Shown here one piece after another: positions 14,301 through 29,716 of a DNA stretch of 29,749 nt. Origin of the DNA: a virus; IMG/VR virus record IMGVR_UViG_3300028883_000110, positions 1 through 29,749 of that record. One strand, 5' to 3'. Numbering within the stretch: the stretch's first letter is position 1; each line of letters starts with the position of its first letter. The notes below the pieces were generated by a model. It did no database searches. It saw only the letters and a program-made list of their open reading frames with translations, and was not told the origin of the DNA. A program made the translations under genes and the position numbers.

Positions 14301-17300
14301 ACGTGAAGGATATGCCCGAAGCTACCGCTTCGGACATCCGCCGATTCATTGAGGCAGGTAAGTACATCAGCGCCCAGCCGGTAGAGGTTCAGGCTGGGCT
14401 CTTCGCGGGCGACACTGACTTCCAGTACCAGCAGGAGCTGCAGCGCAAGGTGGCCAAGCAGGCGGCGAAGAAGATCGCCGAGCTGCGTAGCCGCCGGGCG
14501 ACCATCCGCGGAGCCACGCGCATTGACCAGTCGAAGGTCGCCTCCGAGTACGGCATCAAGGTCAAGTCAGACCAAGACCTCAACGCCCTCGAGGAAGCGC
14601 TCGACAACGAGATCGATAAGCTGGAGCACTACTGGACTGACCCGGAGCTCGTCAAGGAGCTGCAGGAGCAGGCGTCCGGGGGGCAGGGCGACCTGTTCGA
14701 TCAGAAGCAGGATCAGAAGGAACCCGGCGGGGGCGCCAGCGGCAACGCGATGGCAGCGGCTGTCACTTCGTCTCTGAATGTCCTTCCCCGGAATCCCGAC
14801 GCGATCCAGGACGACCGCCCCAAGACCAAGTCGAGGGGGCGAAAAACTCCGCCCGTGTCGGAACCTGCCGCACCAGGCGAAGCTGAAGAGACGCTCGGAG
14901 CTCGATTCAAGCGAGCCATGAAGACGAATACCTTGGTGGATGGCATACTGCATTTGTTGTCTCCGGCCCATCGCGGAGTCGCGCTCCCCGGCCAGGAGGA
15001 CGCCCCCGCACTGCAGGTAGCTAAGATCAAGGCTGCGTCCGTTGCGGAGATGCACCGGAAGGACCTTGTCGTTGCCAAGCTCCTGCATGACGCAGAGAAG
15101 GCCAGCAGCATCAAATTCCGCAAGATGACCAATGCCGAGGTAGCCGACTTCGTTCATGCCATAGAAACCGGCCAGTCGCTCGACATTCCCGAGTTGCAGG
15201 TCCTGGCGGATACGCTGAGGAATCTGCTGGACGAAGGACGGACGCAACTGCAAGCCATCGGGAAACTGCAGGAGTTTTACGAGAACTACTTCCCGCACCT
15301 ATTCAAGGATGCCCGCAAGGCTCGCGACCCCATCGTCGCCGCGCTGTCAAAGCGTCACCTGAAACCGTCCGGCTTCTTGAAGCAGCGGAAATACCTCACC
15401 GTCAAGGAGGCAATGGAGTCCAACCCGGACCTTGAGCTGGCCCACTGGAACCCGCTGCTGATCGTCGCCATGCACCTGCATCAGGTGCACCGGCACCTGG
15501 CCGACCATCAAATCGTGCAGCAGCTCAAAGCGCGGGGGCTGGCTCGGTTCGTGGCTGCGTCCCTGACCAAATCCTACGCCCCGGCAGGGTGGGTGGCTGT
15601 TGATGATCCCTCGACTCAGGTGGTAGCTTCGCCAGAGATATCGGTGCAGGAAGCCTACGACCAACTGCTTGCCGATCAACTCAAAGGGGTCTTGGCCTCG
15701 CTGGGGATTACCCACGAGCGCATGGCGACCCTTGGCCGGCCGAATCTCTGGGGCCTGTCGATGACCGGCCAACCCCGGATCAAGACCAAGTTTGCGGGGC
15801 CGTTGAGCGTGCTGGGGCACGAGTTGGGGCACCAGATTGGGGACATCTTTGGCCTCTATGAGTACATGAGGACCGGGGAGCATACACAGGGCAAGGTCAT
15901 CGAGAAAGGCAAGTACAAGGGGCAGCGCAGCAAGTCGGACGCCCAGAAGAAGCGAGGCAACATCGACCGTGAATTCCGCGCACTGGCCAGACTGCGCGCT
16001 GAGGGGCACGACGGGCAAATTAGCAAGGCTCGCCTGCGCTATCTTATGAAGCAGGCGGAGAAGGAGGCTGTCATTCTCGAGGCTTGGCTGGCGGCTCCCG
16101 AGAAAATGGAGCGCGTGGCGCCTGAGATCACGAAGGCGTGGAAAGAGTTCCTCAGTGCTCACGAACGGCTCAAGCCCCTGTTGCATCTCAATCGATCTGT
16201 TGTTCTGGGGACGGCATCCACTACTCATAAGTTGCCCGGAGTGCTCAACCTTGGCCGGTGGTACGTTCCGGCTGAGGTTGGGACAATACTGGAGAACTAC
16301 CTGTCTCCAGGATTCCGCGGGTACAAGATTGCAGCGGTGGGCTCTACCTACGAATGGCTCAGGTTTGTCGGCGCTGCGATGAACCAAGCAAGTCTGGCGC
16401 TGAGCGGGTTCCATGCGATCAACGTCTCGACAGATGCTATCAATACCCAGATGGGCCTGGGGTTCCAGCAGCTATTCCGACTGCAGCTTAGCAAGGGTCT
16501 GAAGAACATAGTGCAGTCTCCCCTCGCCCCCGGAACGGCCCTCATGGCCGGCCGCAAGCTCCTCAAGGCCGTGCAGACTCCGCTGAACGAGATTGCAGAC
16601 CCTCAGATGCGGGAGATGGTGGAGGCGCTAGTCCAGGCCGGCGGCCGGGCCAAGATGGACCCCATGTACCACAATCAGATGCTGCAGGGTTTGACAACGA
16701 CCATGCGGGAGCTCACCGTCGAGGGCGCTGGCAACAAGGCAACAGCGGCGGTTAAGCTGCCGTTCCAGACGATCTTCGGTGCTATAGAGCTGGCTGCCTG
16801 GCCGATCATGCAGTATCAGGTGCCGGCACTCAAGCTGGGCTGCTTCCAGTTGTTGGCCAAGGACATCTATGCGGAGGCCGAGCGGAAGGGATGGTCGGAT
16901 GCCCGGCGTCAAGGCGAGCTCATGTCTGCCTGGTCCTCGGTGGATAACCGCATGGGGCAGATGACCTACGACAATCTGAACTGGCATCGGATGTTGAAGG
17001 AAGCATCCATGCTAGTTTTGCGTTCGGCTGGATGGAACCTTGGCTCGCTTCGTGAATTTGGCGGAGCTTTGTTCGTTGATCTACCCTCGACCCCGGCTCG
17101 TATTCTTCGGGGTGATGATATCATTACCCGTCGGATGGGGTACGCTGTTGGCGCAGGTATAAGTTACGCGCTCCAGGGGGCCCTAATAACCTACCTGCTG
17201 ACCGGCCTGTGGCCCTGGGACGATGATGACGAAGAGGATACCCTGTCGGAGCGGCTGAAAGATTACTACTTCCCCAAGACCGGGAATGTCAACCCTGATG

Positions 17301-18295
17301 GGACAGCGGAGCGGCTGGGGCTGCCGACCTACTCTCGAGACATTTTTTCTTGGTACACTCGACCGTGGACCACGCTTAAGCACAAATTGCATCCCTTGTG
17401 GGGCACCATTGCAGACCTCATTTCGAATGAGGATTACTACGGGACCGAAATCCGAGACGTGAAGGATCCCTTACCCCAACAGCTCATTGACATGGCCAGC
17501 CATATAGGGGAGTCGTTTATCCCCTTCAGCGTGCGGAACTACTTCCGATTCCGAGAGGCTGGCGAATCCAGGACTCAGGCATTCCTGCAAGGTGTTTCCG
17601 GGATTACGTCGGCTCCGAAATACATCACCGAAACACCCGCCCGTAAGCTGCTCAGTGAAATTGCGGCCAGCAAGCGCTCCCGGGGCTCCCGTTCGAAGGA
17701 GAAGGCTGAATATTACCGGCGTCGGACTCAGGCGATACGTGGATTGCGCTCCGGCCAGAAGGTTGACCTCAGTGGTTTCACTTCCGACCAGATTAAGGAC
17801 ATCCAGCGAGAGTCAAAGCTCACCCAGCTGCAGTCTTCGTTCAAGCGCTTGAGCCTTGAGGACGCTGTCAGAGTGTTCCACCTAGCCAATGCCGAAGAGC
17901 GGATGCAGTTGTTTGATCTGCTACTGGATAAGCGAGTCCGCACGACATCGGCCGACGATGACGTAATGCAGGCATACTACGCACTCAGGCTCTCTCAGGG
18001 AGAGATCGATGCCCGACGCAAGGCAGACCAGCAGGCGGCAGGTAAAGACCTCCTGAGGCTGTCTGTGGCCCAGCGCAAGGGTGAACCTGAGGAGCTCTAC
18101 CTGCAGCGCCTGGCCGAAATCAAGGGCAGACTCAAGAAGAACCCGGAATTCGACCTCGACAAGCACGCCGTCAGGGCCTTAATGAGGGCTGCTGCAAAGG
18201 GCTCCGGGTTCAAGACAACGAGGATGTATAGGGGTTTCAAGCTGACCCCCTACGGCAAGCGGGTCCGGAAAGCTGAGCGAGCCCTCGGACTCTAG
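11336..18295 (+). CDS. giant polyvalent protein (SAP/HeH-like, ParB-like, zincin, LPD38-like)
   Basis: One uninterrupted frame encodes 2319 residues, with GGGAG upstream of the ATG. Domains in order: a Gly/Ala-rich helical, partly hydrophobic region (about 180-420); a charged coiled coil (about 500-610); a SAP/HeH-like helix-turn motif (about 632-675, YTRKQLNSKSRTFLAGLAKS); a ParB/sulfiredoxin-like domain (about 810-920) with NGHHR at 865-869; a helical region after it (about 1020-1120); a gluzincin-like HELGH at 1495-1499 with a possible third ligand Glu1546; then an LPD38-like region from about 1640, including a hydrophobic helix near 1940-1960 (ISYALQGALITYLLTGLWPW). Polyvalent proteins of phages and conjugative elements are known to join such domains and to travel with the DNA into the host. 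Position after internal-virion genes fits an ejected protein. Processing by its own protease is possible but unproven. Confidence 0.8.
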   Translation: MPEQVIVTSPEELMKKLSEPAVLPPPPAPSPRKVESPEELQRTMDWGAADFVLSENPVMPVPEHLAVEVPQPSVLGSRYYTVPPRGEWGRMGEMGFLESIGRMNPEEKLPGIGLGADIGRLLLVRAAADRVSKAQAAGKDVFKDRAFDEDLDTLRNTWLLHQYESARGQSWAGLGAEVLSEIPSFLVEMWASGGIAGAARVGAKKAVRKVVGNGLLRTAGQTGAGLLASGGARLATVGVPRVVKGYIERKNPQAVFDSAYKVRIEESKETHVSALYKAVGDTFIEYLSEESGEILGKLGGRAVRRLAAKSPKFAALNNAIRKAWSKVPGNKPSGWGQRLKKVGWHGIVEEMGEERLGDVLRSVLRVEDKTLGEALIPTGKQFMAELMSFGVMGGGFAGAGQVRQSVRTRRYRKALLSDGGAGAWALHNWEKAADLVDGESSSRKAFEAAGLPKMSGEERAAFLDQVTGFLRAAVEPAPATGQSGVEPEALAVDLTPEEMLRQQMEGAQQRIEGATARVRAEREGREEAEAQTEEKRQAIRDEFETLIGDSLDLEADLHRAFSEGDLDKAQELNSALVGMHQKARERFSGLDLSQLAQPIDPAMFVMQEAGQKTRDERRKAKESGPEPAPQGYTRKQLNSKSRTFLAGLAKSRGIANPGSMNKKALIRALLKTPAAKPVEKPAPAPEPVKSKGLKPEAELNSLREQIQRAQEVLEEKPQFSGNKTFMARLAKLQDRYAELEAQQGRAPAEKPEAPESTAKWAAGIPVEKAKEPAGEDHGPAGEEAGSQEVVRTPRQPAPSDEFFHTDAEVVRAPVSEIKIDSKRFQYKIDTDEEGVRDRLEGPWDDRVSGIVLLWQAKNGDTYVVNGHHRIELAKREGVKDIRAVVVREADGVTPGDARLRGAIENIKSGRGTTADAAEMWRLTDEQDLEVTEKEYGGNPKQTHGYKIGRHAADQVYDLWRRGSLGDSQAAAIASAVPGNEADQRSALEYVKDMPEATASDIRRFIEAGKYISAQPVEVQAGLFAGDTDFQYQQELQRKVAKQAAKKIAELRSRRATIRGATRIDQSKVASEYGIKVKSDQDLNALEEALDNEIDKLEHYWTDPELVKELQEQASGGQGDLFDQKQDQKEPGGGASGNAMAAAVTSSLNVLPRNPDAIQDDRPKTKSRGRKTPPVSEPAAPGEAEETLGARFKRAMKTNTLVDGILHLLSPAHRGVALPGQEDAPALQVAKIKAASVAEMHRKDLVVAKLLHDAEKASSIKFRKMTNAEVADFVHAIETGQSLDIPELQVLADTLRNLLDEGRTQLQAIGKLQEFYENYFPHLFKDARKARDPIVAALSKRHLKPSGFLKQRKYLTVKEAMESNPDLELAHWNPLLIVAMHLHQVHRHLADHQIVQQLKARGLARFVAASLTKSYAPAGWVAVDDPSTQVVASPEISVQEAYDQLLADQLKGVLASLGITHERMATLGRPNLWGLSMTGQPRIKTKFAGPLSVLGHELGHQIGDIFGLYEYMRTGEHTQGKVIEKGKYKGQRSKSDAQKKRGNIDREFRALARLRAEGHDGQISKARLRYLMKQAEKEAVILEAWLAAPEKMERVAPEITKAWKEFLSAHERLKPLLHLNRSVVLGTASTTHKLPGVLNLGRWYVPAEVGTILENYLSPGFRGYKIAAVGSTYEWLRFVGAAMNQASLALSGFHAINVSTDAINTQMGLGFQQLFRLQLSKGLKNIVQSPLAPGTALMAGRKLLKAVQTPLNEIADPQMREMVEALVQAGGRAKMDPMYHNQMLQGLTTTMRELTVEGAGNKATAAVKLPFQTIFGAIELAAWPIMQYQVPALKLGCFQLLAKDIYAEAERKGWSDARRQGELMSAWSSVDNRMGQMTYDNLNWHRMLKEASMLVLRSAGWNLGSLREFGGALFVDLPSTPARILRGDDIITRRMGYAVGAGISYALQGALITYLLTGLWPWDDDDEEDTLSERLKDYYFPKTGNVNPDGTAERLGLPTYSRDIFSWYTRPWTTLKHKLHPLWGTIADLISNEDYYGTEIRDVKDPLPQQLIDMASHIGESFIPFSVRNYFRFREAGESRTQAFLQGVSGITSAPKYITETPARKLLSEIAASKRSRGSRSKEKAEYYRRRTQAIRGLRSGQKVDLSGFTSDQIKDIQRESKLTQLQSSFKRLSLEDAVRVFHLANAEERMQLFDLLLDKRVRTTSADDDVMQAYYALRLSQGEIDARRKADQQAAGKDLLRLSVAQRKGEPEELYLQRLAEIKGRLKKNPEFDLDKHAVRALMRAAAKGSGFKTTRMYRGFKLTPYGKRVRKAERALGL

Positions 18296-18319
18296 CCCGG
18301 ATTTCCCAGAATTTTGCCC

Positions 18320-18347
18320 TTGCGCTCCTGAGAGCGTCTGATATACT
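18320..18347 (+). promoter_or_regulatory. candidate sigma70-type promoter for the replication gene block
   Basis: TTGCGC at 18320-18325 and TATACT at 18342-18347 are separated by 16 bp. A TG at 18339-18340 gives an extended -10 element (TGnTATACT). The predicted start of transcription is near 18354, about 38 bp before the ATG of the helix-turn-helix gene. It sits in the only substantial gap between the virion genes and the replication genes. Confidence 0.55.
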
Positions 18348-18355
18348 ACTCTCAG
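18328..18355 (+). promoter_or_regulatory. candidate operator: 7-bp inverted repeat framing the -10 box
   Basis: CTGAGAG at 18328-18334 and CTCTCAG at 18349-18355 are perfect reverse complements 14 bp apart, so the -10 box lies between them. Centre-to-centre spacing is 21 bp, two helical turns, which suits a dimeric repressor. The nearby small helix-turn-helix protein is one possible binder; this is inference. Confidence 0.4.
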
Positions 18356-18391
18356 AAAGGCTCAATAGCCTCACGCATAGAAAGGAGAGAC

Positions 18392-18616
18392 ATGGAAACT
18401 GAGACAGCGGAGAAGGACTGGCTCGACGTTCGAGAGCTGGCGGAGCTATTCCGCATCTCCGTGCCGACCGTGTACCGCATCCTGAAGGACGGGCCGGCAC
18501 GCGAGCGGAAGACAAATTCGGTTGACCTCCGGCAGATACCCGATCGCTGGATCGGGGGCCGGAGATACTGGAATCGCCAGGTAGCACAGAGTCTCTTCAA
18601 CGGGGACTCGCAGTAA
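18392..18616 (+). CDS. small helix-turn-helix protein, AlpA/excisionase-like
   Basis: AAAGGAG lies just upstream of the ATG. The 74-residue product has a winged-helix signature of the AlpA/excisionase (MerR-like) type: WLDVRELAELFRISVPTVYR at about residues 10-29 forms the helix-turn-helix, followed by a wing-like stretch (RWIGGRRYWNRQVAQSLF). Proteins of this size bind DNA as regulators or as excisionases. No integrase is present in the window, so a regulator of the downstream block is more likely than a directionality factor. It is the first gene after the promoter and operator candidates and ends 12 bases before the ATPase gene. Confidence 0.7.
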   Translation: METETAEKDWLDVRELAELFRISVPTVYRILKDGPARERKTNSVDLRQIPDRWIGGRRYWNRQVAQSLFNGDSQ

Positions 18617-18628
18617 GAGGGAGGGTCT

Positions 18629-19435
18629 ATGTCTTTTGACCTTGGCAGCATCAAGAGCGCGAAGCAGGACCGACCACGGAGGATGTTGGTCCTCGGCAGG
18701 GCGAAAGTCGGTAAGTCGACTTTCGCAGGGGAGTCAGACTCCCCGATTTTCCTGCCGGTGAACGGCGAAGAGGGGATTGACGCGCTGGACGTTCCGGCGT
18801 TCCCCGTCGCGAAGAAGTTCCCGGATGTCATCGAGGCCATCGGCACGCTCTACTCCGGCGACCACAAGTACAAGACGTTCGTGGTCGACTCGGCGTCGGC
18901 GCTAGAGCCGATCATCTGGGACGAAACCTGCCGGATCAACGGCGGCGTCGACTCCATCGAGAAGGTCGGCGGCGGCTACGGCAAGGGCTTCCACGAATGC
19001 CTCAAGCAGTGGCGGGAGCTGCTCGAGGGGCTGGACGCCCTGAGGAACGACATCGGGATGCAGATCATCCTGATCGGGCACGTGAAGGTGGAGAAGTTCA
19101 ACGACCCCGCGTGCGAGCCCTACGACCGCTACAGCGCAGAGCTCCACAGGCACGCCACGGCGCTCCTCACCCGCTGGGCCGATGGCGTTCTCTTCATCCA
19201 GCACAAGACCATCGTGCGGAAGGATGACGCCGGCTTCAACAAGAAGCAGAACCGGGCCGTGGATACCGGCAACGGCCAGCCCTTCATGTACACCCAGGAA
19301 CGTCCGGCGCACCCCGGCGGTGGCCGCGGCGAGTGGGGCAAGCTCCCTTACGAGCTCCCGCTCTCTTGGGACGCCCTCAGTAACGCACTGGCTCAGGCAT
19401 CACAGCCGAAGAAGGCTCAGGGCACGAAGAAGTAG
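18629..19435 (+). CDS. Sak4-like RecA-fold ATPase (phage recombination/annealing)
   Basis: This 268-residue protein has a Walker A motif at residues 23-31 (GRAKVGKST) and a Walker B strand ending at Asp87 (TFVVDSASALE). IILIGHVKVEKF (about 150-161) provides the conserved polar strand and sensor typical of the AAA_24/Sak4 group. Sak4 proteins are short RecA-related recombinases or annealing helpers that work with a phage single-strand binding protein. The next gene (DUF669) and the nuclease gene downstream make a coherent recombination module. GAGGGAGGG precedes the ATG. The basic C-terminal tail (QPKKAQGTKK) is not part of the core fold. General ATP-binding phage protein is the cautious alternative. 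Confidence 0.8.
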   Translation: MSFDLGSIKSAKQDRPRRMLVLGRAKVGKSTFAGESDSPIFLPVNGEEGIDALDVPAFPVAKKFPDVIEAIGTLYSGDHKYKTFVVDSASALEPIIWDETCRINGGVDSIEKVGGGYGKGFHECLKQWRELLEGLDALRNDIGMQIILIGHVKVEKFNDPACEPYDRYSAELHRHATALLTRWADGVLFIQHKTIVRKDDAGFNKKQNRAVDTGNGQPFMYTQERPAHPGGGRGEWGKLPYELPLSWDALSNALAQASQPKKAQGTKK

Positions 19436-19465
19436 TCTCGGCGGCAGAAAAGGAAAGGAAGAACG

Positions 19466-20002
19466 ATGGGAGACATTCAGGACGTTTTCGGTGGCCATGA
19501 GTTCAACTGCAGCGAGGTTAATCCCGCGCAGGATTTCGAGGCACTCCCGGCCGGTTGGTACACGGCCCTCATCGAAGAGGCGGAGGTCAAGTTCGCCAAA
19601 GACAGCACTGAAGCAGCCAGGAAAGTGTTCCTCGCACTGAAGCTCAGCGTACTCGAGCCCCAGCAGTCCCGGGGGCGCAAGGTCTTCGCTAACATCACAC
19701 TGGATCACCCGACGAAGAAGGCCGTAGACATCGGTTGGGGGGAACTGTCTGCGCTTGGGAGGGCAACTCTGGTTCCCACCATCACGGATAGCTCCGACAT
19801 CCTCAACAAGGTGGTGCAGATCAAGGTCGCAGTAAAGAACAGTGACGGGTTCGGCGTTCAGAACGAAGTCAAAGGCTACAAGGCTCCCGAGAACGCAGCC
19901 AACACTGGCCAGCCTGCCGCGGCCCCGGCCGCCCCGACTGCCAATGCTCCGGCTGCGACTCAGGCAGCTCCCGCAAGCCTTCCGCCCTGGAAGCGGAAGT
20001 AG
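19466..20002 (+). CDS. DUF669-like protein, probable single-strand DNA-binding partner
   Basis: The 178-residue product has a compact domain (about residues 20-135) matching the DUF669 pattern: a FEALPAGWYTALIEEAEVKF start, an aliphatic strand FLALKLSVLEPQQSRGRKVF, then NITLDHPTKKAVDIG and a KVVQIKVAVKNSDGFGVQNE strand. A long Ala/Pro/Thr linker follows (about 140-172), ending SLPPWKRK. DUF669 genes commonly sit beside Sak3/Sak4-type ATPases and are thought to bind single-stranded DNA. Unlike classical SSBs, whose tail ends acidic, this tail ends basic, so partner recruitment would differ. The start has AAAGGAAG upstream. The gene is followed by a 103-bp structured gap. Confidence 0.7.
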   Translation: MGDIQDVFGGHEFNCSEVNPAQDFEALPAGWYTALIEEAEVKFAKDSTEAARKVFLALKLSVLEPQQSRGRKVFANITLDHPTKKAVDIGWGELSALGRATLVPTITDSSDILNKVVQIKVAVKNSDGFGVQNEVKGYKAPENAANTGQPAAAPAAPTANAPAATQAAPASLPPWKRK

Positions 20003-20003
20003 A

Positions 20004-20078
20004 CGCCCCTCCCGTGGGGCGGCAGCAGACCGGTCGGAACGGCCTTCTTCCCGGCGAGTTGCCGCCCCACTCTCTCTT
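20004..20078 (+). promoter_or_regulatory. candidate attenuator-like RNA: two mutually exclusive hairpins
   Basis: Within the 103-bp gap, 20004-20009 (CGCCCC) can pair with 20016-20021 (GGGGCG) as a 6-bp hairpin with a 6-nt loop. Alternatively 20014-20024 (GTGGGGCGGCA) pairs perfectly with 20060-20070 (TGCCGCCCCAC), extended by a G-U and a C-G pair. The two folds share 20016-20021 and cannot coexist. The long stem is followed by TCTCTCTT (20071-20078), a weak terminator-like tract. Control of the Gp157 gene and those downstream is inferred. Confidence 0.4.
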
Positions 20079-20105
20079 GGCAGCGAACAATGAGGAGACG
20101 AAGCT

Positions 20106-20630
20106 GTGGCGAAACAGACCCTGTTTGAGATCAGTCAGGACATGCAGGCCCTCGATGACCTGCTGGACGTAGCGGACATCGAGAGCCCGGAGGCTCAGGC
20201 CGCCCTGGCGGCGTGGGCCGAAGAGGTCCAGGAGAACCTCGAAACCAAGGTCGACAACTACGCGGCCTACATTCAGACCCTGCTCGCGCGGTCGGACGCC
20301 CGCAAGAAGGAAGGCGACCGCCTGAAGAAGAAAGCGACCGCCGACGAGAACAAGGCCAAGAAGCTGAAGGAGCACCTGAAGACCATCCTCGAGTTCCGGA
20401 AGGTCAAGACAGTCGACACCCTCCGCTTCAAGGTTACGGTATCCAAAGCCGGGGGCAAGACGCCCGTCGAGTGCAACGTCCAGCCGCAGGATTTACCCGA
20501 GGAGTTCCGCACAGAGGTCCCGGCCAGCTACAAGGTCAACACCGATGCTATCCGGGCCAAGCTGGAAGCTGGCGAGAAGGTCGACGGATGCCGGCTCCTC
20601 GAGAGGGGCACCTACCTGAGAGTATCGTAG
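20106..20630 (+). CDS. Gp157-family protein
   Basis: The start is a GTG at 20106 with GAGGAG at 20092-20097. The 174-residue product fits the Siphovirus Gp157 family. It has an N-terminal helical part with an acidic stretch (about 1-60), a long basic coiled coil (ARKKEGDRLKKKATADENKA, about 66-95), a strand TLRFKVTVSKAGGKTPVEC, then LPEEFRTEVPASYKVNTDAI and a VDGCRLLERGTYLRV end. The family is widespread in phages next to recombination genes. One member was reported to influence streptococcal phage resistance, but the molecular role is not settled. Here it sits between the SSB-like and nuclease genes, so DNA recombination is the likely context. Confidence 0.75.
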   Translation: MAKQTLFEISQDMQALDDLLDVADIESPEAQAALAAWAEEVQENLETKVDNYAAYIQTLLARSDARKKEGDRLKKKATADENKAKKLKEHLKTILEFRKVKTVDTLRFKVTVSKAGGKTPVECNVQPQDLPEEFRTEVPASYKVNTDAIRAKLEAGEKVDGCRLLERGTYLRVS

Positions 20631-20637
20631 GTGCGCT

Positions 20638-21732
20638 GTGGGTAACCTCGAGCAGTTCCTCCCCCAGCAATCCAAGACAGTCCAAGCAATCTACGACGCT
20701 TGGAAGAAGCGCGGAGATGCTGAGGCACCCAGGACCTACCTGGGTGCCAGCAGCATTGGTCATGAGTGCAGCCGCTTCCTGTGGTATCAGTTCCGGTGGT
20801 GCGGACGAGAGGAGTTCCCCGGCCGCATCTACCGGCTCTTCGATCACGGCGACAAGGAAGAGCTCCGGATGGTCAATGACCTCCGGGATATCGGCTGTGA
20901 AGTCCATCCAGTAGACCCTGAGACAGGCGAGCAATTCGCGATCAGCTTTGCCGACGGTCACGGCGGCGGGCACATGGACGGTTGTGCCTTGGGTGTTCTC
21001 GAGGCTCCGAAGACTTGGCATGTTGTGGAGTTCAAGACTCACAACGCTAAGTCATTCGGTGACCTCAAGCGCCGAGGCGTCCAGCAGTCGAAGCCGAAGC
21101 ACTACGCTCAGATGCAGGTCTACATGAGAAAGAGCGGGATGGAGCGAGCGCTCTATCTCGCCATCAACAAGAACACCGAGGACCTCTACGCCGAGCGCGT
21201 CAAGCTCGACCGGGAGTTCGCCGATAGCCTCTTGGAGCGGGCCGACCGGATTGTCAAGGCTGGCCAGCCTCCCCTGAGGGCGGGCGAGGGCCCCGATGCT
21301 CCCGTCTGTAAGTACTGTGCGATGATCTCACTTTGTCATGGGAACCCGGCCGGCGTGGCCGCGCCGTGCGTTGTCTCCTGCCGGTCTTGCGCTCACTCCG
21401 AGCCCATAGCCGAGGGCGCTTGGTGGTGTGAGCTCAACCAGAAGCGACTGAGCGCCATCGACCAGTCCCGGGCCTGCCAGCAGCATCTTTGGGCTCCCGG
21501 GATTATCACCTTTGCGGAGTGCGTCGACGCCGGCAAGAACCCCGACGAGAGCATGTTCATTGAGTACATGAACGAGGCCGACAATTCGACTTGGCGTAAC
21601 GGCAGCAACCTCGAGGACGGGCAGTTCTCCAGTGTGGAGCTGACCAAGATTCCGAAGTCTGCGCTGCACGGGAAAGACGGGGAGCGGATCAAGCATATCA
21701 AGCAAAAGATCAGAGGGGAGGTAGTTGGATGA
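20638..21732 (+). CDS. Cas4/RecB-like PD-(D/E)xK nuclease with iron-sulfur cysteines
   Basis: The start is a GTG at 20638, seven bases after the preceding stop. The 364-residue product shows the nuclease core: Asp114 in GGHMDG, then Glu131-x-Lys133 in WHVVEFKTHN, with Gln119-type support likely supplied by HYAQMQVYM. Cys44 plus Cys224, Cys227 and Cys233 (CKYCAMISLC) form the split four-cysteine arrangement that holds a 4Fe-4S cluster in Cas4 and AddB nucleases. A second set (Cys248, Cys251, Cys264, Cys280) suggests a zinc-binding insert not usual in Cas4. No CRISPR array accompanies it. It probably trims DNA ends for the Sak4 module. The last 47 residues are encoded by sequence repeated 539 bp downstream. 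Confidence 0.8.
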   Translation: MGNLEQFLPQQSKTVQAIYDAWKKRGDAEAPRTYLGASSIGHECSRFLWYQFRWCGREEFPGRIYRLFDHGDKEELRMVNDLRDIGCEVHPVDPETGEQFAISFADGHGGGHMDGCALGVLEAPKTWHVVEFKTHNAKSFGDLKRRGVQQSKPKHYAQMQVYMRKSGMERALYLAINKNTEDLYAERVKLDREFADSLLERADRIVKAGQPPLRAGEGPDAPVCKYCAMISLCHGNPAGVAAPCVVSCRSCAHSEPIAEGAWWCELNQKRLSAIDQSRACQQHLWAPGIITFAECVDAGKNPDESMFIEYMNEADNSTWRNGSNLEDGQFSSVELTKIPKSALHGKDGERIKHIKQKIRGEVVG

Positions 21733-21734
21733 GC
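21591..21734 (+). repeat. direct repeat A (nuclease gene 3' end), copy 1
   Basis: These 144 bp match 22130-22273 with four mismatches by eye (about 97 % identity). Copy 1 is the functional 3' end of the nuclease gene and runs four bases into the coding start of cargo gene X. Confidence 0.95.
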
Positions 21735-22085
21735 GATGTGCGGCGTGCCATGCACCAAGGCAGCGTTGAGCTTTACGGGAGTCGAATTAGGATGGAGCGG
21801 GCTATCGCTGCGCTTCGGAAGGAATGGTGGCCGACTGTCCACGTGGAAAGCGCCATAGAGAAGCTGGAGAGGATCGAGCAACTCAACAGTGTGCGGCAGG
21901 CATTACGCAGCGGGGTGTTGACATCTAGGGAGCGGTCCGTTATGGAGTCTCTCTACGGTCTTAACGGGCCTACTCTTTCGTTGTTGGAGTGTGGCGCAAA
22001 ATACAAGATTACCAGAGAGCGCGTCCGGCAGATTCAACACATGGCGATAAGAAAGCTGCAGGCAGCGCTGAGGCACCTAGCATGA
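21729..22085 (+). CDS. lone sigma-70 region 4-like protein (cargo X)
   Basis: The ATG overlaps the nuclease stop (ATGA) and the gene's own stop overlaps the ATG of the helicase-start copy (ATGA). The 118-residue product has a helical N-terminus with Trp residues (about 1-60). Its C-terminal half (about 63-116) looks like sigma-70 region 4: LTSRERSVMESLYGL, a short insertion, then KYKITRERVRQIQHMAIRKL, which matches the TRERIRQIE recognition helix of primary sigma factors. No region 2 is present, so it cannot act alone as a sigma factor. It may touch -35 DNA or the RNA polymerase flap and redirect transcription. A complete sigma-family protein is encoded at 28329-28994. GC is near 55 % by partial hand count, below its neighbours. 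Confidence 0.75.
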   Translation: MSDVRRAMHQGSVELYGSRIRMERAIAALRKEWWPTVHVESAIEKLERIEQLNSVRQALRSGVLTSRERSVMESLYGLNGPTLSLLECGAKYKITRERVRQIQHMAIRKLQAALRHLA

Positions 22086-22129
22086 ACCAAGCTCGCCTCT
22101 CCCTTCCCTCTGGCCGACCGAATCTCCAG
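22082..22129 (+). repeat. direct repeat B (helicase gene 5' end), copy 1
   Basis: These 48 bp correspond to 23074-23121. The last 27 bases are identical and seven mismatches lie in the first 21. The spacing between copies is 992 bp. Confidence 0.9.
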
Positions 22130-22267
22130 TTGGCGCAACGGCAGCAACCTCGAGGACGGGCAGTTCTCCAGCGTGGAGCTGACCAAGATTCCGAAGTCTG
22201 CGCTGCACGGGAAAGACGGGGAGCGGATCAAGCATATCAAGCAAAAGATCAGAGGGGAGGTAGTTAG
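22082..22267 (+). pseudogene. chimeric remnant: helicase start fused out of frame to nuclease end
   Basis: Positions 22082-22129 copy the first 48 bp of the helicase gene (27 of the last 27 bases identical, seven mismatches before that). From 22130 the sequence copies the nuclease 3' end. An open frame of 61 residues runs through, starting MNQARLSLPSGRPNLQ, but the nuclease part is read in a different frame from its parent. Its ATG overlaps the stop of cargo X, so it could be translated, but it most likely is recombination debris. The nuclease frame itself remains open to a TGA at 22269-22271. Confidence 0.8.
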
Positions 22268-22273
22268 GTGAGC
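22130..22273 (+). repeat. direct repeat A (nuclease gene 3' end), copy 2
   Basis: This copy joins seamlessly to the end of repeat B copy 1 and ends at the GTG start of cargo gene Y, exactly as copy 1 ends at the ATG start of cargo gene X. It preserves the nuclease C-terminal frame and stop. Confidence 0.95.
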
Positions 22274-23074
22274 TCATATACGAAAATGCGCCTATCGGAT
22301 CTGAAGGAGGAGGCGAAATCCGTAGGGGTTTCAGTCTCGGCGCTCTGCAAAACGTTGGTTAGAAACAAAACAAATGAGAGGTTTTGGCAGCACATTCGTG
22401 ATGAGGATGCACAGGCAAGGGCTTTCGGCTTGATGCTCCAGGCCGATATGTTTCTAGGAAACTGCATTCATTACTTCATGCCCAGTCGTGACTTTTGCGA
22501 CTGGTTGGTGTCCTGCCCGAAGGAGCTGGGCGCAAATCAGATTTACCGTGCGTGCAACATCCTCACTAATCGCTTTGCCTTACACTTCCCGATAGGGCAA
22601 GGATTGAGATCCTTCCTGGGGACGTTCATGGGCAACTCGTCAAACCCAAATAGGCCCGGCATCTTTTTAACATCAGGGCATGGTGCCTGCATGTGGGGTT
22701 CCGTGATACTTCCCGTCGGTGGGTTAAGTAAGCCGCTCGAATACCTGACGGATTCCTCGTCAGCGGTAATAGACCAAGTTCGTTACGCATCAAAACTTGT
22801 GGCCGGCTTTGGACTGTACGCTTCTTGCTTTCCCGGCTGTATTCGGCACGGGATTCCATCTGACTTGCGTAAGGGAAAATGGGACAAAACTCAGAAGGCG
22901 AAGACGGTGGTGATCTCCCGGGAAGTCAAATCTTCCGGGGGCATTACGCCTCACTACCGAAGCGGACATTTCCGATTGCTCAACGCAGACCGATACACCA
23001 AGAAAAAGGGGCAAGTCGTATTTGTTCATGGATGCTTCGTGAGGGGGGAAGCGCGTGTAGTGGTGAGAGATTAA
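22268..23074 (+). CDS. unknown cargo protein Y, compositionally distinct
   Basis: The likely start is the GTG at 22268, which overlaps the stop of the copied nuclease end (GTGA); GAGGGGAGG lies just upstream. The 268-residue product is not recognised. Residues about 1-60 are helical (LSDLKEEAKSVGVSVSALCK), residues about 60-200 are mixed with many Gly, Phe and Cys, and the C-terminus (about 205-268) is basic. A short pattern HYRSGHFRLLNADRYTKKKG followed by QVVFVHGCFV ends the protein; similar His/Arg-Gly-His endings occur in assorted phage proteins, including some anti-CRISPR relatives, so it gives no firm function. The first 170 bases count to about 49 % GC against about 63 % in a sample of the helicase gene, which points to separate origin. 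An accessory or anti-defence role is inferred from the cassette position only. Confidence 0.7.
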   Translation: MSSYTKMRLSDLKEEAKSVGVSVSALCKTLVRNKTNERFWQHIRDEDAQARAFGLMLQADMFLGNCIHYFMPSRDFCDWLVSCPKELGANQIYRACNILTNRFALHFPIGQGLRSFLGTFMGNSSNPNRPGIFLTSGHGACMWGSVILPVGGLSKPLEYLTDSSSAVIDQVRYASKLVAGFGLYASCFPGCIRHGIPSDLRKGKWDKTQKAKTVVISREVKSSGGITPHYRSGHFRLLNADRYTKKKGQVVFVHGCFVRGEARVVVRD

Positions 23075-23121
23075 TGACTCAGGCTACCCTCCCTCTTCCC
23101 TCTGGCCGACCGAATCTCCAG
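23074..23121 (+). repeat. direct repeat B (helicase gene 5' end), copy 2
   Basis: This is the genuine start of the helicase gene. It is partly duplicated at 22082-22129. The stop of cargo Y overlaps its first base (TAATG). Confidence 0.9.
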
Positions 23122-24732
23122 CCTCGCCCCTACCAAGAGGACGCGCTGGAAGCTCTGCACGCGCATGTCTGCAACAAGGAAACCAACCCCTGCGTCGTGA
23201 TCCCAACGGGCGGCGGGAAGTCCGTCTTGATGGCTTGGGCAATCCAACGCTGGAAGGATGACTACCCGCCGCTCCGGGTCGCGATCTTGGCGCACCGCAA
23301 GGAGCTCGTCGCACAGAACAGTAGCGAGCTGGCTGAGGTTTGGCCGGGCGCGGACATCGGCATCTACGCGGCCGGGCTCAAGAGGAGAGACACCGAGAAC
23401 AGCATCCTCTACGCCAGCATCGATAGCGTCTACAAGCGGGGCGGTGAGTTCACGTCGTTCGACATTATCATTGTCGACGAAGCCCACAGGATACCGCCAA
23501 GCGGGGAGGGGAAGTACCGCACCTTCATTGATATGCAGAGGCTTCAGAACCCGGGCGTGCTCATCATCGGCTTCACGGCCACCCCGTTCCGGATGACTGG
23601 GCCTCTCTGCCACAAAGACCACATCCTGCAGGAAGTCTGCTACGAAGCTCACATCCACAGCCTGATCCGAGACGGGTTCCTCTGCAAACTGTGGAGTCGC
23701 CGCGGGGAGCACCAACCCGATCTCTCCGAGGTCCGGAGGAACAACGGCGGAGACTACATCGTCAACAGCCTGTCTAAGGCGGTAGACCGGGATGAAATCG
23801 TAAGCCAGGCGGTGCATGACTCAGTACAGAACATCCGGCTTTACGACCGCCGACACATGATCTTCTTCTGTGTTGACGTTGAGCATTGCCGGAAGGTCAG
23901 CAAGGAGCTTCAGCTCTACGGAATCAACGCGCCGTATATCACAGCCAGCACGCCGCGCAAGAAGCGGGATGCCGTCGCCCGGGCATTCAAGGAGGGTCGG
24001 CTCCACGCGATTTGCAACGTGAACGTCTACACCGAGGGGTTCAACGCCAAGCAGGTCGATTGCATTGTGCTGCTGCGCCCGACGCTCTCCAAGGGGCTTT
24101 ACGTTCAGATGGTCGGCCGCGGCCTCCGGGTTCACCCCGACAAGGAAGACTGCCTCATCCTCGACTATGCCCACTGCATCGACGAACACGGGCCCGTGGA
24201 TTGTATCGACGCCGGGGAGGTTCCGCTCTTCGACTGCCGGCAGTGCGGCAATGTCTTCAGCCGGCAGATTCGGGTATGCCCTCACTGTGGCTGGAGAATC
24301 CCGCCTCAGGAGATTGAGGCGGCCGAGGCGGAGGAGCGCGAGAGGCGCCTGCACGCGATCAAGGCCAGCAATCGGAACATCCTATCCGGGGAGCCCGAGG
24401 ACCTCACAGTCGAGGATGTCCGGGTTCACCGGCATGTCAAGTCCGGGATGCCGGACAGCCTGAGGGTTGAGTATCGTTGCGGCCTCTTGATGGCGAGGGA
24501 GTGGATATGCCTCGACCATCCCGGCTTTGCCGGCGAGAAGGCCCGGCGGTGGTGGATAAAGCGCTTCGGCAGTCCAGCCCCCACAGTCGACGCCGCAATG
24601 GAAAACATGTTCCTGGCCAACCAGCTCAGGGAGATCACCCGCAGCATTACTGTTGTCCAAAAGGGGAAGTACAAAGAAATCACCGCGCATGACCTTGCGC
24701 CTGTAGCGAAGGGTAAGCATGTCGCATCTTGA
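23074..24732 (+). CDS. DEAH-box superfamily 2 DNA helicase with zinc ribbon
   Basis: The frame is open from 22879, but the ATG at 23074 is chosen because the duplicated copy at 22082 begins at the same ATG and the upstream stretch overlaps cargo Y. The 553-residue product has a Q-like RPYQ (18-21), Walker A PTGGGKS with Lys49, DEAH at 135-138, a TATP motif (GFTATPFRM), and motif VI QMVGRGLR (345-352). This is the RecA-pair architecture of phage DEAD/DEAH helicases related to RecG/UvsW and type I restriction helicases. A C4 zinc ribbon (Cys388, Cys391, Cys402, Cys405) and a C-terminal domain of unknown type follow. It probably remodels forks or recombination intermediates. The last 14 bases overlap the primase gene. 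Confidence 0.85.
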   Translation: MTQATLPLPSGRPNLQPRPYQEDALEALHAHVCNKETNPCVVIPTGGGKSVLMAWAIQRWKDDYPPLRVAILAHRKELVAQNSSELAEVWPGADIGIYAAGLKRRDTENSILYASIDSVYKRGGEFTSFDIIIVDEAHRIPPSGEGKYRTFIDMQRLQNPGVLIIGFTATPFRMTGPLCHKDHILQEVCYEAHIHSLIRDGFLCKLWSRRGEHQPDLSEVRRNNGGDYIVNSLSKAVDRDEIVSQAVHDSVQNIRLYDRRHMIFFCVDVEHCRKVSKELQLYGINAPYITASTPRKKRDAVARAFKEGRLHAICNVNVYTEGFNAKQVDCIVLLRPTLSKGLYVQMVGRGLRVHPDKEDCLILDYAHCIDEHGPVDCIDAGEVPLFDCRQCGNVFSRQIRVCPHCGWRIPPQEIEAAEAEERERRLHAIKASNRNILSGEPEDLTVEDVRVHRHVKSGMPDSLRVEYRCGLLMAREWICLDHPGFAGEKARRWWIKRFGSPAPTVDAAMENMFLANQLREITRSITVVQKGKYKEITAHDLAPVAKGKHVAS

Positions 24733-26983
24733 AGCAGCTCTAGAATACGCTAGCCGAGGCTGGCCGGTCTTTCCGCTCAAGCCCTACGGGAAGAAGCCAA
24801 TCATGGCCGGCGGATTCCACAAAGCCACTACCAACCTCGGCCAGATACGGGAGTGGTGGGAGCGATGGCCTGAGGCCAACATCGGAATTCCCTGTGGGGA
24901 GCGAACCTTCTGCGTTGTGGACATCGACCCCAAGCACAATGGGGATAAGACCTACAACGAGCTAGTCAGCAAACACGGGCCCTTCCCACCGACCCTCAAG
25001 CAGCAAACCGGGGGCGACGGTCTACACCTCCTGTTCAAGCCGGACCCCCGGGTCGGCAACAGCGAGTCCAAGATCGGCCGGGGGATCGACACCCGCGGCA
25101 ACGACAAGGGCTACATCTGTGTCGCGCCCTCCGTCCACGAGACGGGGAACACCTACAAGTGGGTCAACGAAGGGACGCCGCTGGCGGAAATGCCGGAGTG
25201 GGCCATTGAGGAGCTGGCCAGTCGCCCGAAGGCCGAGGCCCCGCCTCCCCCGCCGCCGCCCTCGCCGAGCTCCCGGCCGCTTGACTCTGCGGTCGAGGAG
25301 CGGGCCCGGGCCTACCTTCAGCAGTGCGAGCCCGCAATACAGGGCCAGGGCGGGCACGCCCGGCTCCTGTGGGCCTGCACGGCGATGGTTCACGGTTTCG
25401 AGCTCGATGACTCCACGGCCTACCAACTCCTCACGGAGGAGTACAATCCGCGGTGCTCTCCGCCTTGGGACCTGAGCGTCCCGGCTGAGAGGAGGGAGTT
25501 CCTCCGGAAGATCAAAGAAGGCCGCAAGGAGAAGCAGAAGCCTCACGGATGGCTGCTGCAGGAGATGCACCAAGCCGATGCAGCCATGATTGGGCACGCA
25601 CGGGATCAGGCCGACGCGCTGATTCGGTCGGCGCAGGCCCCCTCGCCTGCCCCGATGGTCGTCTCAGCGCCGGAGCCGGAGTCGCTGGCCCTGGGGGCCA
25701 CGCCACCGCCGGAGCTAATCTTGTACCCGCCGGGGTTGCTGGGGGATCTTGTCTCCTACATCAACAAGACTGCCCGCAAGGTGCAACCGCTGCTGGCGCT
25801 AGGGAACGCGCTGGCCTATTGCGGAGCGCTTTTCGGCCGGAAGATTCAAGACGAGTGGGGGCTCCGGACAAACCTCTTCTGCTTGGGGGTTGGAGAGAGC
25901 GGGTGCGGCAAGGAGCACTCGAGGCAGGTAACCAAGCGCCTCTGTATCGAGGCCGCAATCATCGAACGACTGCTCGGGGGCGAAGAGGTCACAAGCGATA
26001 GCGCCGTGCGATCAAGGCTGAAGCGGCACCCGTCGGTACTGTTCTGCTGGGATGAGATCGGGCACCTACTGGCAAGCATGATGGATCAGCGGGCCAGCGG
26101 GCACCGCCGCGGCATCGTGCCCTACCTGATGCAGATGACCGGCAGCGCCCGGACGATTTTGCTGGGCAAGGAGTACTCCGAGGAGGACCGGACTGACATT
26201 GAACAGCCACACGTGTGTATCTACGGGACAACAACGCCGGGCAAGTTCTATAGCGGTGTGACCTCCGCAGAGATCGAGAGCGGGCTGCTTGGGCGGTTCC
26301 TCGTATTTCGCGTGACGGACGATGACCCGCCTGTCAACTACGAGGGCAGCAAGCTCTCGGCCATCCCGGCACCACTAATTGAGCGGTCGCAATACTGGGA
26401 CCAGTTCCAACCGGACCCGCCGGAGGGCACCGGGGACATCCGGCAGTTTACCGGCGTCTACCCTACGGTCGTGCCGACCGACAAGTCCGCCAACAGGGCC
26501 TTCCAGGAGTTCGAGAACGACTGCCGCCGGAAGGCCCGGGTTTGCCGCAGAAACGGGGAGCCCTATCATCCGCTCTGGGTTCGGGCCGGCGAGCACGCAC
26601 GGCAGGTAGGGCTGATCCTGGCCGGCTGTGACTGCATGACAGCCTTGAGCGCCAGGATCACCCTCGAGCACGCGACCTATGCGTGCGCCCTGGTGCAGTA
26701 CGTGACCTCTGAGTTCGTCCGTGCGACCTCGCTTTGCATTGCCGACTCCGAGAACGAGCGCTGGGCCAAGAAGATTCACAAGCTAGTACGTGACGCCGGC
26801 CCGAAGGGCATGAAGCGCCGGGACCTCACGCGACAGACCCGACCCCTCTCCCTCCGGATGAGGGATGACATCATCAAGAACCTACTGGACGGCGAGTACA
26901 TTGTGCAGCTCGTCAGGAACCGGACCACCTACTACTTCTGCCCGCCGTTCGGGCTGAACATGACGACGGAGGAGCAAGCATGA
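24719..26983 (+). CDS. primase-polymerase fused to P-loop helicase
   Basis: The ATG lies inside the helicase gene end. Residues 1 to about 170 form an archaeo-eukaryotic primase-polymerase domain: ALEYASRGWPVFPLKPYGKK start, DxD motif at Asp68/Asp70 (VVDIDPKH), a GGDGLHLLF His motif, and a KGYICVAPS strand. A Pro-rich linker (about 178-190) and a helical spacer lead to a P-loop domain with GESGCGKE (Lys398), Walker B Asp445-Glu446 (LFCWDEIGH) and an IYGTTTPGKFY sensor-like strand, resembling DUF3987-type phage helicases. The C-terminus (from about 680) looks like a winged helix (LVRDAGPKGMKRRDLTRQ). Such fusions prime and unwind at phage origins. No family A or B DNA polymerase gene is visible in the window. 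Confidence 0.85.
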   Translation: MSHLEAALEYASRGWPVFPLKPYGKKPIMAGGFHKATTNLGQIREWWERWPEANIGIPCGERTFCVVDIDPKHNGDKTYNELVSKHGPFPPTLKQQTGGDGLHLLFKPDPRVGNSESKIGRGIDTRGNDKGYICVAPSVHETGNTYKWVNEGTPLAEMPEWAIEELASRPKAEAPPPPPPPSPSSRPLDSAVEERARAYLQQCEPAIQGQGGHARLLWACTAMVHGFELDDSTAYQLLTEEYNPRCSPPWDLSVPAERREFLRKIKEGRKEKQKPHGWLLQEMHQADAAMIGHARDQADALIRSAQAPSPAPMVVSAPEPESLALGATPPPELILYPPGLLGDLVSYINKTARKVQPLLALGNALAYCGALFGRKIQDEWGLRTNLFCLGVGESGCGKEHSRQVTKRLCIEAAIIERLLGGEEVTSDSAVRSRLKRHPSVLFCWDEIGHLLASMMDQRASGHRRGIVPYLMQMTGSARTILLGKEYSEEDRTDIEQPHVCIYGTTTPGKFYSGVTSAEIESGLLGRFLVFRVTDDDPPVNYEGSKLSAIPAPLIERSQYWDQFQPDPPEGTGDIRQFTGVYPTVVPTDKSANRAFQEFENDCRRKARVCRRNGEPYHPLWVRAGEHARQVGLILAGCDCMTALSARITLEHATYACALVQYVTSEFVRATSLCIADSENERWAKKIHKLVRDAGPKGMKRRDLTRQTRPLSLRMRDDIIKNLLDGEYIVQLVRNRTTYYFCPPFGLNMTTEEQA

Positions 26984-27306
26984 TTTTCCCGCTACCGCAA
27001 AGCAGTCTAAGGAGGGCACAGATCCGTGCCTACCAAGTGCTGAGAGCAGAGGGCGAGCCCTCGCGGCACCATCTAGATCAGGTGGTAATGAGGGCCTTGG
27101 AGGCTTACGAGGAAGATCGACCCAAGGTGTTGAGTAATACTCAATACAGAAGAATCGTCGCCGCCCTGCGAACAATTGCTAATTACGTGGGCATCACAGA
27201 GGAGGAATTCAACAAGAAATACCCAGACACAACCCCCCTTGTGGAACTGGGAGGTTGCGGCGCAGTTGCCTCCAGGGCCCTCGATTGCCTGACGGAGGAG
27301 CGGTGA
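26980..27306 (+). CDS. small protein of unknown function
   Basis: The ATG overlaps the preceding stop (ATGA). The 108-residue product is mainly helical: RRAQIRAYQVLRAEGE, LDQVVMRALEAYEED, and YRRIVAALRTIANYVGITEE. The end is Gly/Ala/Cys containing. No motif is recognised. Its coupling to the primase-helicase gene and the overlap of its stop with the next start point to a role within the replication operon, which cannot be specified. Confidence 0.65.
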   Translation: MIFPLPQSSLRRAQIRAYQVLRAEGEPSRHHLDQVVMRALEAYEEDRPKVLSNTQYRRIVAALRTIANYVGITEEEFNKKYPDTTPLVELGGCGAVASRALDCLTEER

Positions 27307-27629
27307 TGAAAGGCGTTCGCAGCCGATGGGAGCTCGTCAAGGAGGGGCTGAGCGACAAGCTCGCCACTGTTCCGGATTACGTCGAATGGGCGGCCGGGAT
27401 CGCTAACGAATGGATGGACGCAGACCCGACTGGAAGGACAACGCTAGACGATGGCGCTCACCAGGCAGTAGCCACGCTGCAAGACATCGTAGACCGCGCC
27501 CTGAAAGTCTACGATTACCGAGTTGTCGGCCTGGCCGCTACGGCCATCGAGACGGGCACCCTCCGGCGCACCATCGATGGGGTCGAAGAGGTTCGGTGCC
27601 TCCGGGGCTACGTCAATGACGGTAAGTGA
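27306..27629 (+). CDS. small protein of unknown function
   Basis: The ATG at 27306 overlaps the previous stop by one base and has GGAGGAG just upstream, so it is preferred to the in-frame ATG at 27255. The 107-residue product is acidic and helical (ELVKEGLSDKLATVPDYVEW, HQAVATLQDIVDRALKVYDY) with a basic, beta-like C-terminus (LRRTIDGVEEVRCLRGYVN). No family is recognised. The last 14 bases overlap the resolvase gene, suggesting coupled expression. Confidence 0.65.
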   Translation: MKGVRSRWELVKEGLSDKLATVPDYVEWAAGIANEWMDADPTGRTTLDDGAHQAVATLQDIVDRALKVYDYRVVGLAATAIETGTLRRTIDGVEEVRCLRGYVNDGK

Positions 27630-28008
27630 AACGGTCTTCGTGGTGCTGCCAATGCCGGCCCGGGTGCTGTCACCCAACCGGTCGCCGGCAACCATGCGGG
27701 GGCGCTACAAGAAGGCTGCAGCCGCGAAGAAGCTCCGCAGGCTTGCCCGGGAAGCAGCTCAAGAGGCGGCCATCGACAGCGCTCCCTGGCCACTGGCCAG
27801 CGTCTCGGCCACCTTCTTCTGCCGGGTGGACCGCCGCCGTGATCCGGACAACTATATGGCCATGCTCAAGCCGGCCTACGATGGCCTGGTCGACGCCGGC
27901 CTGCTCGTCGACGATGACTGGTGTCATCTGAAGCGCGGAGAGCCGCAGTTCGAGCTGGATCGCGAGTACCCGCGCGTAGAGCTCACAGTCACAAGGAGAG
28001 AGGCATGA
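27616..28008 (+). CDS. rusA: RusA-family Holliday junction resolvase
   Basis: The start is placed at the ATG at 27616, within the preceding gene; an ATG at 27652 is a less likely alternative. The 130-residue length is close to that of E. coli RusA. Conserved features are a PxPxRxxSPNR entry loop (residues 12-22), a long basic helix (about 30-52), and the catalytic cluster DPDN (Asp76, Asp78) followed by DGLVDAGLLVDDDW with Asp99-Asp101. RusA dimers cut four-way DNA junctions, with metal bound by these aspartates. In this operon it would resolve intermediates made by the Sak4, nuclease and helicase proteins before packaging. The stop overlaps the next start (ATGA). Confidence 0.85.
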   Translation: MTVSETVFVVLPMPARVLSPNRSPATMRGRYKKAAAAKKLRRLAREAAQEAAIDSAPWPLASVSATFFCRVDRRRDPDNYMAMLKPAYDGLVDAGLLVDDDWCHLKRGEPQFELDREYPRVELTVTRREA

Positions 28009-28328
28009 TTGCCAAGAACCCGCCACCCCCGGTTATCTTCGAGGCGAAGGACTATCAGATAGGGCCCAAGCGGAAGGTAAAGGTGCTCAAATACGTCCAG
28101 TGGCCAGGCACGCGACGAGAGGACCTGCATCCCGGCGTCGAGCAGTTGACGTTCTTGGGCTACGCTCCGGTGACCGGCATTCTCCCGAACGGGAACAAGT
28201 TCAGCCGCCCCATCTGCTTCTCGATCAAGGCCGAGACGATTTTCGAGGCGGTCGAGCGGTTCGAGGAGTTCCGCAAGGTAGCTGTCGACGATATGAACAA
28301 GCCCAAGATCGTACCGCCTGGGGGTTGA
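28005..28328 (+). CDS. small protein of unknown function
   Basis: The ATG at 28005 overlaps the resolvase stop and follows AAGGAGAGAG, so it is chosen over the longer upstream frame. The 107-residue product is a compact basic protein with strands KVKVLKYVQWPG and EQLTFLGYAPVTG, a SRPICFSIKAETIFEAVERF segment, and a Pro-rich C-terminus. No family is recognised. It ends directly before the sigma factor gene. A small DNA- or protein-binding accessory role is possible. Confidence 0.65.
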   Translation: MIAKNPPPPVIFEAKDYQIGPKRKVKVLKYVQWPGTRREDLHPGVEQLTFLGYAPVTGILPNGNKFSRPICFSIKAETIFEAVERFEEFRKVAVDDMNKPKIVPPGG

Positions 28329-28994
28329 ATGGCCGCACAACCCCCTCTTGATCGGCAGCACCTGATAGAGCAACACCTGGGGCTCGTCGAGGCCTACGCA
28401 AATCGGATAGCACACTCATCGAGCCTCCCCAGTTGCATCGACCGCGACGAGCTCGTCGCCTGGGGATTCGTGGGCCTGGCCGAAGCCGCTCGTCGATACC
28501 GCCCGCGCAGAGGCACCAAGTTTGCGACCTACGCAAACCATCTCATCCATGGTCGGATCATTGACGGGCTCCGCCGGATGGACTGGCTCCCGCGTGCGCT
28601 ACGCCTGGAGATTAAGGCGGGCACGCAGGCCAAGGTCCGGCAGGTTCCCTTGGATTGCCCGGTCAAGGATGACCTGACTGTTCGCGAGCTGCTGGAGGCC
28701 GCCGGGCCCGCAGCCAGCGAATGCGCCGAGCACCGCGAGCTGGCCAGCATTGCCATGCGGAAGGTGTTCGGCAAACACCGCGAGATTATCCGTCAGTACT
28801 TCTTTGAGCACAAAACGATGGCGGAGATCGGGGACAGCCTGGGCCTCACCGAGAGTCGCATTTGCCAGGTAGCCAACGAAGCAATGGGGATGATCCGGGA
28901 GGCTGTGGGCTCCACGGCCGCCGGGTCAGCATTCTACGCGAACAAGAATAGGAGGCATCCATGCCGCAAGCGCAGGAGCCGGCGTTCTGTCTGA
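28329..28994 (+). CDS. sigma-70 family RNA polymerase sigma factor
   Basis: The ATG directly follows the previous stop and GGGGG lies upstream. The 221-residue product has region 2 at about residues 10-95: DRDELVAWGFVGLAEAARRY, GTKFATYANHLIHGRIIDGL and the RMDWLPR end, very like FliA/sigma-28 region 2. Region 4 lies at about 135-195, with KVFGKHREIIRQYFFEHKTM, then a helix-turn-helix (MAEIGDSLGLTESRICQVAN). A separate region 3 is reduced or absent. The tail is strongly basic (RRHPCRKRRSRRS). Phage sigma factors redirect host polymerase to middle or late promoters, so the virion block is a plausible target. The 3' end overlaps the next gene. Confidence 0.85.
   Translation: MAAQPPLDRQHLIEQHLGLVEAYANRIAHSSSLPSCIDRDELVAWGFVGLAEAARRYRPRRGTKFATYANHLIHGRIIDGLRRMDWLPRALRLEIKAGTQAKVRQVPLDCPVKDDLTVRELLEAAGPAASECAEHRELASIAMRKVFGKHREIIRQYFFEHKTMAEIGDSLGLTESRICQVANEAMGMIREAVGSTAAGSAFYANKNRRHPCRKRRSRRSV
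28950..28955 (+). promoter_or_regulatory. strong ribosome binding site inside the sigma factor gene end
   Basis: AGGAGG at 28950-28955 lies five bases before the ATG at 28961. It supports that start for the next small gene, even though it overlaps the end of the sigma factor gene by 34 bases. Confidence 0.75.
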
Positions 28995-29675: not shown

Positions 29676-29716
29676 TCGTTCTTATGTTGCGTCCAGCAAG
29701 CGAAAGTGAGGGAGAA

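Follow-up and report, generated by a model that had tools for sequence, protein, structure and literature searches.

Two accessory genes stacked with remnants of both neighbours between the nuclease and helicase genes of an uncultivated phage

The window, the whole 29,749-nt stretch of viral DNA that was analysed, carries two unrelated cargo genes, X and Y, in tandem between an exonuclease gene and a helicase gene, and remnants of both neighbouring genes lie between them. The arrangement has the appearance of a gene exchange stopped halfway. The best explanation, to which we give a probability of roughly 78%, is that the border between the two core genes is an accessory slot and that a single homology-independent join between two co-infecting phages, one with X and one with Y in that slot, created the stack. 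The anatomy of the slot, a relative carrying Y as a single cassette, the variable content of the slot elsewhere and helicase scars of like kind in two further lineages are matters of direct observation.

The upstream border of the slot is the gene of a Cas4-domain exonuclease (20638–21732, plus strand; PHROG 1990, 5.7e-96), and the downstream border is that of a superfamily 2 DNA helicase (23074–24732, plus strand; Pfam ResIII, 4.1e-24; PHROG 16 DNA helicase, 1.2e-90). Repeat computation and direct reading of the sequence both give the order A1-X-B1-A2-Y-B2 between them, as the first-pass annotation had described it. Repeat A copy 1 (A1; 21591–21734, plus strand) is the true 3′ end of the nuclease gene, and copy 2 (A2; 22130–22273, plus strand) is a 144-nt remnant of a nuclease 3′ end. 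The copies are separated by 539 nt and are identical at 140 of 144 positions, which makes the earlier figure of about 97% exact. Repeat B copy 2 (B2; 23074–23121, plus strand) is the true helicase start. Comparison with B2 identifies copy 1 (B1; 22082–22129, plus strand) as a 48-nt remnant of the helicase gene start of another lineage; the two agree at 41 of 48 positions. All seven mismatches fall within the first 21 bases, and the final 27 agree throughout, as had been claimed. Scored against the slot, the window's own A and B sequences give 262 and 61 for the copies within it. The corresponding own scores in 18 slots without remnants do not exceed 25, so that chance is excluded. The window contains no N bases, and when the stretch from A1 to A2 was searched against the whole record, it matched only itself and B2.

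Gene X (21729–22085, plus strand; 118 aa) starts with ATG and gene Y (22268–23074, plus strand; 268 aa) with GTG. Both begin at base 139 of repeat A, in agreement with the common start reported before, X in an ATGA overlap with the nuclease stop and Y in a GTGA overlap with the stop in A2. The likely ribosome-binding site for a cargo gene (AGGGGAGGT) lies within the 3′ end of the nuclease gene, and A2 carries the likely site for Y. A common end on repeat B had also been claimed and is not borne out: X ends at base 4 of B1 (ATGA, an overlap of four bases) and Y at base 1 of B2 (TAATG, an overlap of one base). Between the two genes, translation predicts a chimeric 61-aa reading frame (22082–22267, plus strand) that runs from the helicase start in B1 into another frame of the nuclease remnant A2. 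Its TAG stop immediately precedes the GTG start of Y, and the chain of coupled starts and stops therefore has no gap.

The joint between B1 and A2, at 22129/22130, is illegitimate. The parental flanks, ending in ...GAATCTCCAG and ...CAATTCGAC before TTGGCG, offer no useful homology, and by this comparison of flanks the joint is of the homology-independent kind expected of a mosaic exchange slot. B1 differs from B2 as the allele of another strain would. A single illegitimate join, from the B repeat of an A-X-B phage to the A repeat of an A-Y-B phage, thus explains the whole structure. In the proposed sequence of events, the nuclease-helicase junction would serve as a slot for accessory genes, the two core genes overlapping in many relatives, and a cargo gene placed there would use the ribosome-binding site of the nuclease end and overlap the helicase start. 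Two closely related phages, one A-X-B and the other A-Y-B, would co-infect a cell, and a single homology-independent break would link the first phage's helicase gene, at base 48, to the nuclease gene of the second phage, close to the 3′ end of that gene. The recombinant would have one intact nuclease gene, one intact helicase gene and X and Y in tandem, separated by scars of 48 nt from the helicase gene and 144 nt from the nuclease gene.

A relative with the predicted A-Y-B arrangement exists. The contig L003 (full record L150; IMGVR_UViG_3300028595_000086) matches the window from 14639 to 29749 and is near-identical over 15 kb; its slot holds nuclease, Y and helicase, and neither X nor remnants. 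The relatives therefore do not all carry X and Y together. The nuclease proteins are 99% identical, and Y and the helicase are near-identical. Differences between the window and L150 amount to 0.60% upstream of the junction, with a swapped ssb gene removed, and 0.16% downstream, where the match is ∼99.8%; the contrast is ∼3.7-fold (Fisher p 2e-5, which serves only as a guide, as neighbouring sites are not independent). Such uneven divergence fits what is expected if each side came from a different parent, but it could also stem from separate recombination tracts, which clearly exist, as the ssb swap demonstrates. At about 19430–19930, L003 has a different allele of the DUF669/SSB-like gene (74% protein identity) between flanks that are both ∼99% identical, and this difference is a clean allele swap.

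A second contig, L004 (L151), shows no differences from the window between ∼18900 and 21516 and a single one in the 250 bases preceding that stretch; it may belong to the X lineage or to the same strain as the window. It ends directly before 21517, a site at which the window and L003 differ. Its DUF669/SSB-like allele is that of the window. L150 and L151 derive from different samples and both start exactly at 14639, inside a giant gene; this common start is a strain-variation or assembly break point. Both L003 and L004 have 39 extra bases at ∼18180, near the end of the gene for a 2319-aa protein (11336–18295), and in L003 these repeat in tandem a 39-nt unit at the gene's 3′ end, of which the window has one copy.

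Searches of IMG/VR with protein sequence and with DNA words taken from B1 and from the common end of B did not yield an A-X-B parent. The DNA words matched L003 and, as 18-mers, two further records: L100, which has no similarity to the window, and L101, taken as chance. Of the first-pass proposal that recombination between an A-X-B and an A-Y-B genome stacked the cassettes, the A-Y-B genome has been found and the two-parent origin fits; the A-X-B genome has not, and the joint runs illegitimately from B to A, not through matching copies of A or B. Taken as a whole, the interpretation as a single-gene exchange slot in which two genomes were stacked is partly supported. Over 93 nt within A2 the sequence follows A1 and departs from L003, between ends that are L003-like; either gene conversion from one copy to the other or a Y parent unlike L003 could account for this.

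Genes for Sak4-like, SSB, Gam-like and exonuclease proteins lie directly upstream of the slot. The Sak4-like single-strand annealing protein gene (18629–19435, plus strand; PHROG 124, 5.7e-29; Pfam AAA_24) is part of the phage's own recombination module, and genes of this module may have taken part in the join. It is plausible that the stack could collapse back to one cassette, between the A copies or between the B copies. It is possible, albeit rather unlikely, that the nuclease-helicase border is an accretion hot spot across a broad phage family, where repeated illegitimate joins add cargo and the phage's own annealing system, acting on the duplicated gene ends, drops either cassette; populations would then switch between X, Y and X+Y states. 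We consider it improbable that the stack is the older state and that L003-like phages arose from it by deletion between A1 and A2. Such a deletion is likely in principle, with 144-nt repeats 539 nt apart beside the phage's annealing protein. The A copy of L003, however, has C and C at two 5′ sites where A1 has T and T, together with five private bases found in neither A1 nor A2, so it is not a recognisable deletion product of the stack. The crossover would also have to be confined to the first 6 nt of A, and the helicase remnant is absent from most other slots.

The slot was surveyed in relatives with loci that hold both the nuclease and the helicase genes. As expected of an exchange slot, and as the first-pass annotation had anticipated, the flanking core genes are conserved and the content between them is variable or absent, ranging from nothing, with overlapping genes, to 2.5 kb with different genes. 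The slot is empty and the two genes overlap in L043, L063, L067, L073 and L098 and in the isolates C7, CGphi29 and Mcat17; in MW202867 the gap is <30 nt. Elsewhere the cargo is a cytosine methylase (L087), Nmad5 (L061), a nucleotidyltransferase-like gene (L099) or an HNH endonuclease (Roseobacter phage CRP-901), and further slots hold cargo genes without a family. Near-identical genomes that differ by the presence of cargo are found twice: the window and L003, and the pair L031 and L032, which are 98.8% identical on both sides and of which one has and the other lacks a clean 564-nt insert. In one slot gene (L005, 1855–2307), a 24-nt unit, translated as an 8-residue repeat, occurs ∼12 times. 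In MW202867 (L154, 6853–7275), a gene with only sigma-70 region 4 lies directly 3′ of the helicase gene, on the side opposite to that of X.

Helicase scars are present in two other lineages. In L007, whose nuclease is 47% identical, a 56-nt helicase-start scar (6511–6566) lies between two cargo genes; it is 92% like the true helicase start at 6956 and is entered by a stop-start overlap, TGATG. L006 has a degraded 28-nt helicase-start remnant (6943–6970) 3′ of a gene for a 156-aa cargo protein. These remnants score 86 and 41, respectively, against the background of ≤25. With helicase starts from other loci, scores were ≤30 in slots without remnants and 38 in L007, the latter perhaps touching the remnant itself. 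No nuclease-end remnant above background was found in the other slots, those of L006 and L007 included. From these comparisons we infer that stacking recurs at the nuclease-helicase slot, in the window and in two distant relatives.

The stack is known from one assembled contig only, and strain contigs A-X-B and A-Y-B might have been wrongly joined. The remnants are short, as expected of contig ends, and the end of L004 just before a variable site hints at mixed strains in its sample. Little probability attaches to such an artefact, however: the window is free of N bases, the joint has no shared k-mer, and A2 starts only 6 nt before the first difference from A1, where a branch point in an assembly graph would give the length of a k-mer. 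Moreover, the independent contigs L007 and L006 carry diverged helicase scars of a like kind. That a mobile element inserted A2-Y or X-B1 with replacement gene ends, restoring the split neighbour as some integrating elements do, is least probable of all: replaced gene ends would look alike under both models and one related slot holds an HNH endonuclease, but transposase, integrase and endonuclease domains were not found in X or Y, inverted ends are absent at the junction, and both nuclease and helicase remnants are present.

The window is a clear, unusual case of known phage mosaicism, a variant of a known process and no new system. In T4-type phages, gene regions are reportedly shuffled and regulatory cassettes mobile (Arbiol et al. 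2010, cited in PMC4177764), with small accessory genes swapped in a fixed region by recombination as in the window; those cassettes are said to be linked by a repeated regulatory element, whereas the common ends in the window are pieces of two core genes. Gene-scale mosaicism by illegitimate recombination and morons are established in phages (PMC3029335; PMC8136500). As in mycobacteriophages and lambdoid phages, single accessory genes lie between genes that are contiguous in relatives, and junctions fall near gene borders, often without a common boundary sequence (PMC3029335; PMC8136500). Morons typically have their own promoter and terminator; judged from the gene coordinates, each end of X and Y overlaps a neighbour's stop or start codon, which leaves no intergenic space for either element. 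The window differs further in that two cassettes are stacked and both neighbour-gene scars retained. The closest precedent found is gene 68 of mycobacteriophage Island3. This additional gene is flanked by a duplicated gene end of ∼50 bp and is missing from the relative Brujita, and the authors were unable to tell deletion from intermolecular gain (PMC3029335). Island3 has one extra gene and one repeat pair, whereas the window has two cargo genes and two different repeat pairs, from the nuclease end and the helicase start; the joint and both parental halves are therefore readable. The window goes beyond precedent in that its stack retains two different scars, a sister phage has a single cassette and stacking recurs at one site. 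The question of whether homologous exchange at boundary sequences or illegitimate joining builds phage mosaics is usually answered by inference from the end products. With both scars retained and a near-identical single-cassette relative for comparison, the stack shows one illegitimate join directly, with both core genes intact. Like helicase scars in two other lineages suggest that gain by stacking, followed by trimming, is a recurring route at this slot, and such a route is testable.

The product of X is a stand-alone sigma-70 region 4 protein (Pfam Sigma70_r4, 1.4e-10; 41 bits against a curated cut-off of 24.1), and its matches in the PDB are likewise to sigma region 4. In full sigma factors, region 4 recognises the −35 element and contacts the flap of the polymerase. 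Sigma region 2, which binds core polymerase and the −10 element, was not found in the 118 aa, which rules out a full sigma factor; X may redirect transcription. In the phage collection its relatives were only the region 4 part of other sigma-like proteins, and no counterpart of X was present in the relative loci fetched. Towards its end, the window encodes another sigma-like protein (28329–28994), in which regions 2 and 4 are both present.

Gene Y has a GC content of 51.5%, lower than that of neighbouring genes, and belongs to an uncharacterised phage/prophage family. Its relatives occur in spirochaete genomes and IMG/VR phages, with a conserved C-terminal motif, PH[FY]RxGHFR...KKGQ. Neighbouring paralogues of the family (L128, 4473–5297 and 6288–7157; L114; L117) are found in spirochaete genomes and also in a viral contig matching one of them. 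No match to Y was found among families in Pfam, PHROG, NCBIfam and PADLOC or in phage and plasmid records. Fold models were poor from the single sequence and moderate from an alignment (pLDDT 65); the latter gave no credible match in a PDB fold search, and in a viral fold library mostly uncharacterised phage proteins with low TM-scores. The C-terminal motif, which we took to be like that of the anti-CRISPR AcrVA2, had suggested a relation to it. This assignment was dropped, as there was no profile match to the solved AcrVA2 structure among PDB sequences; nor did AcrVA2 appear among the 50 top-ranked PDB folds listed, whose TM-scores were all low, although the fold comparison is a weak one with a model of only pLDDT 65. 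Elsewhere in the window, two copies of a 63-nt repeat (2350–2468) lie inside a gene for a 168-aa protein (2080–2586).
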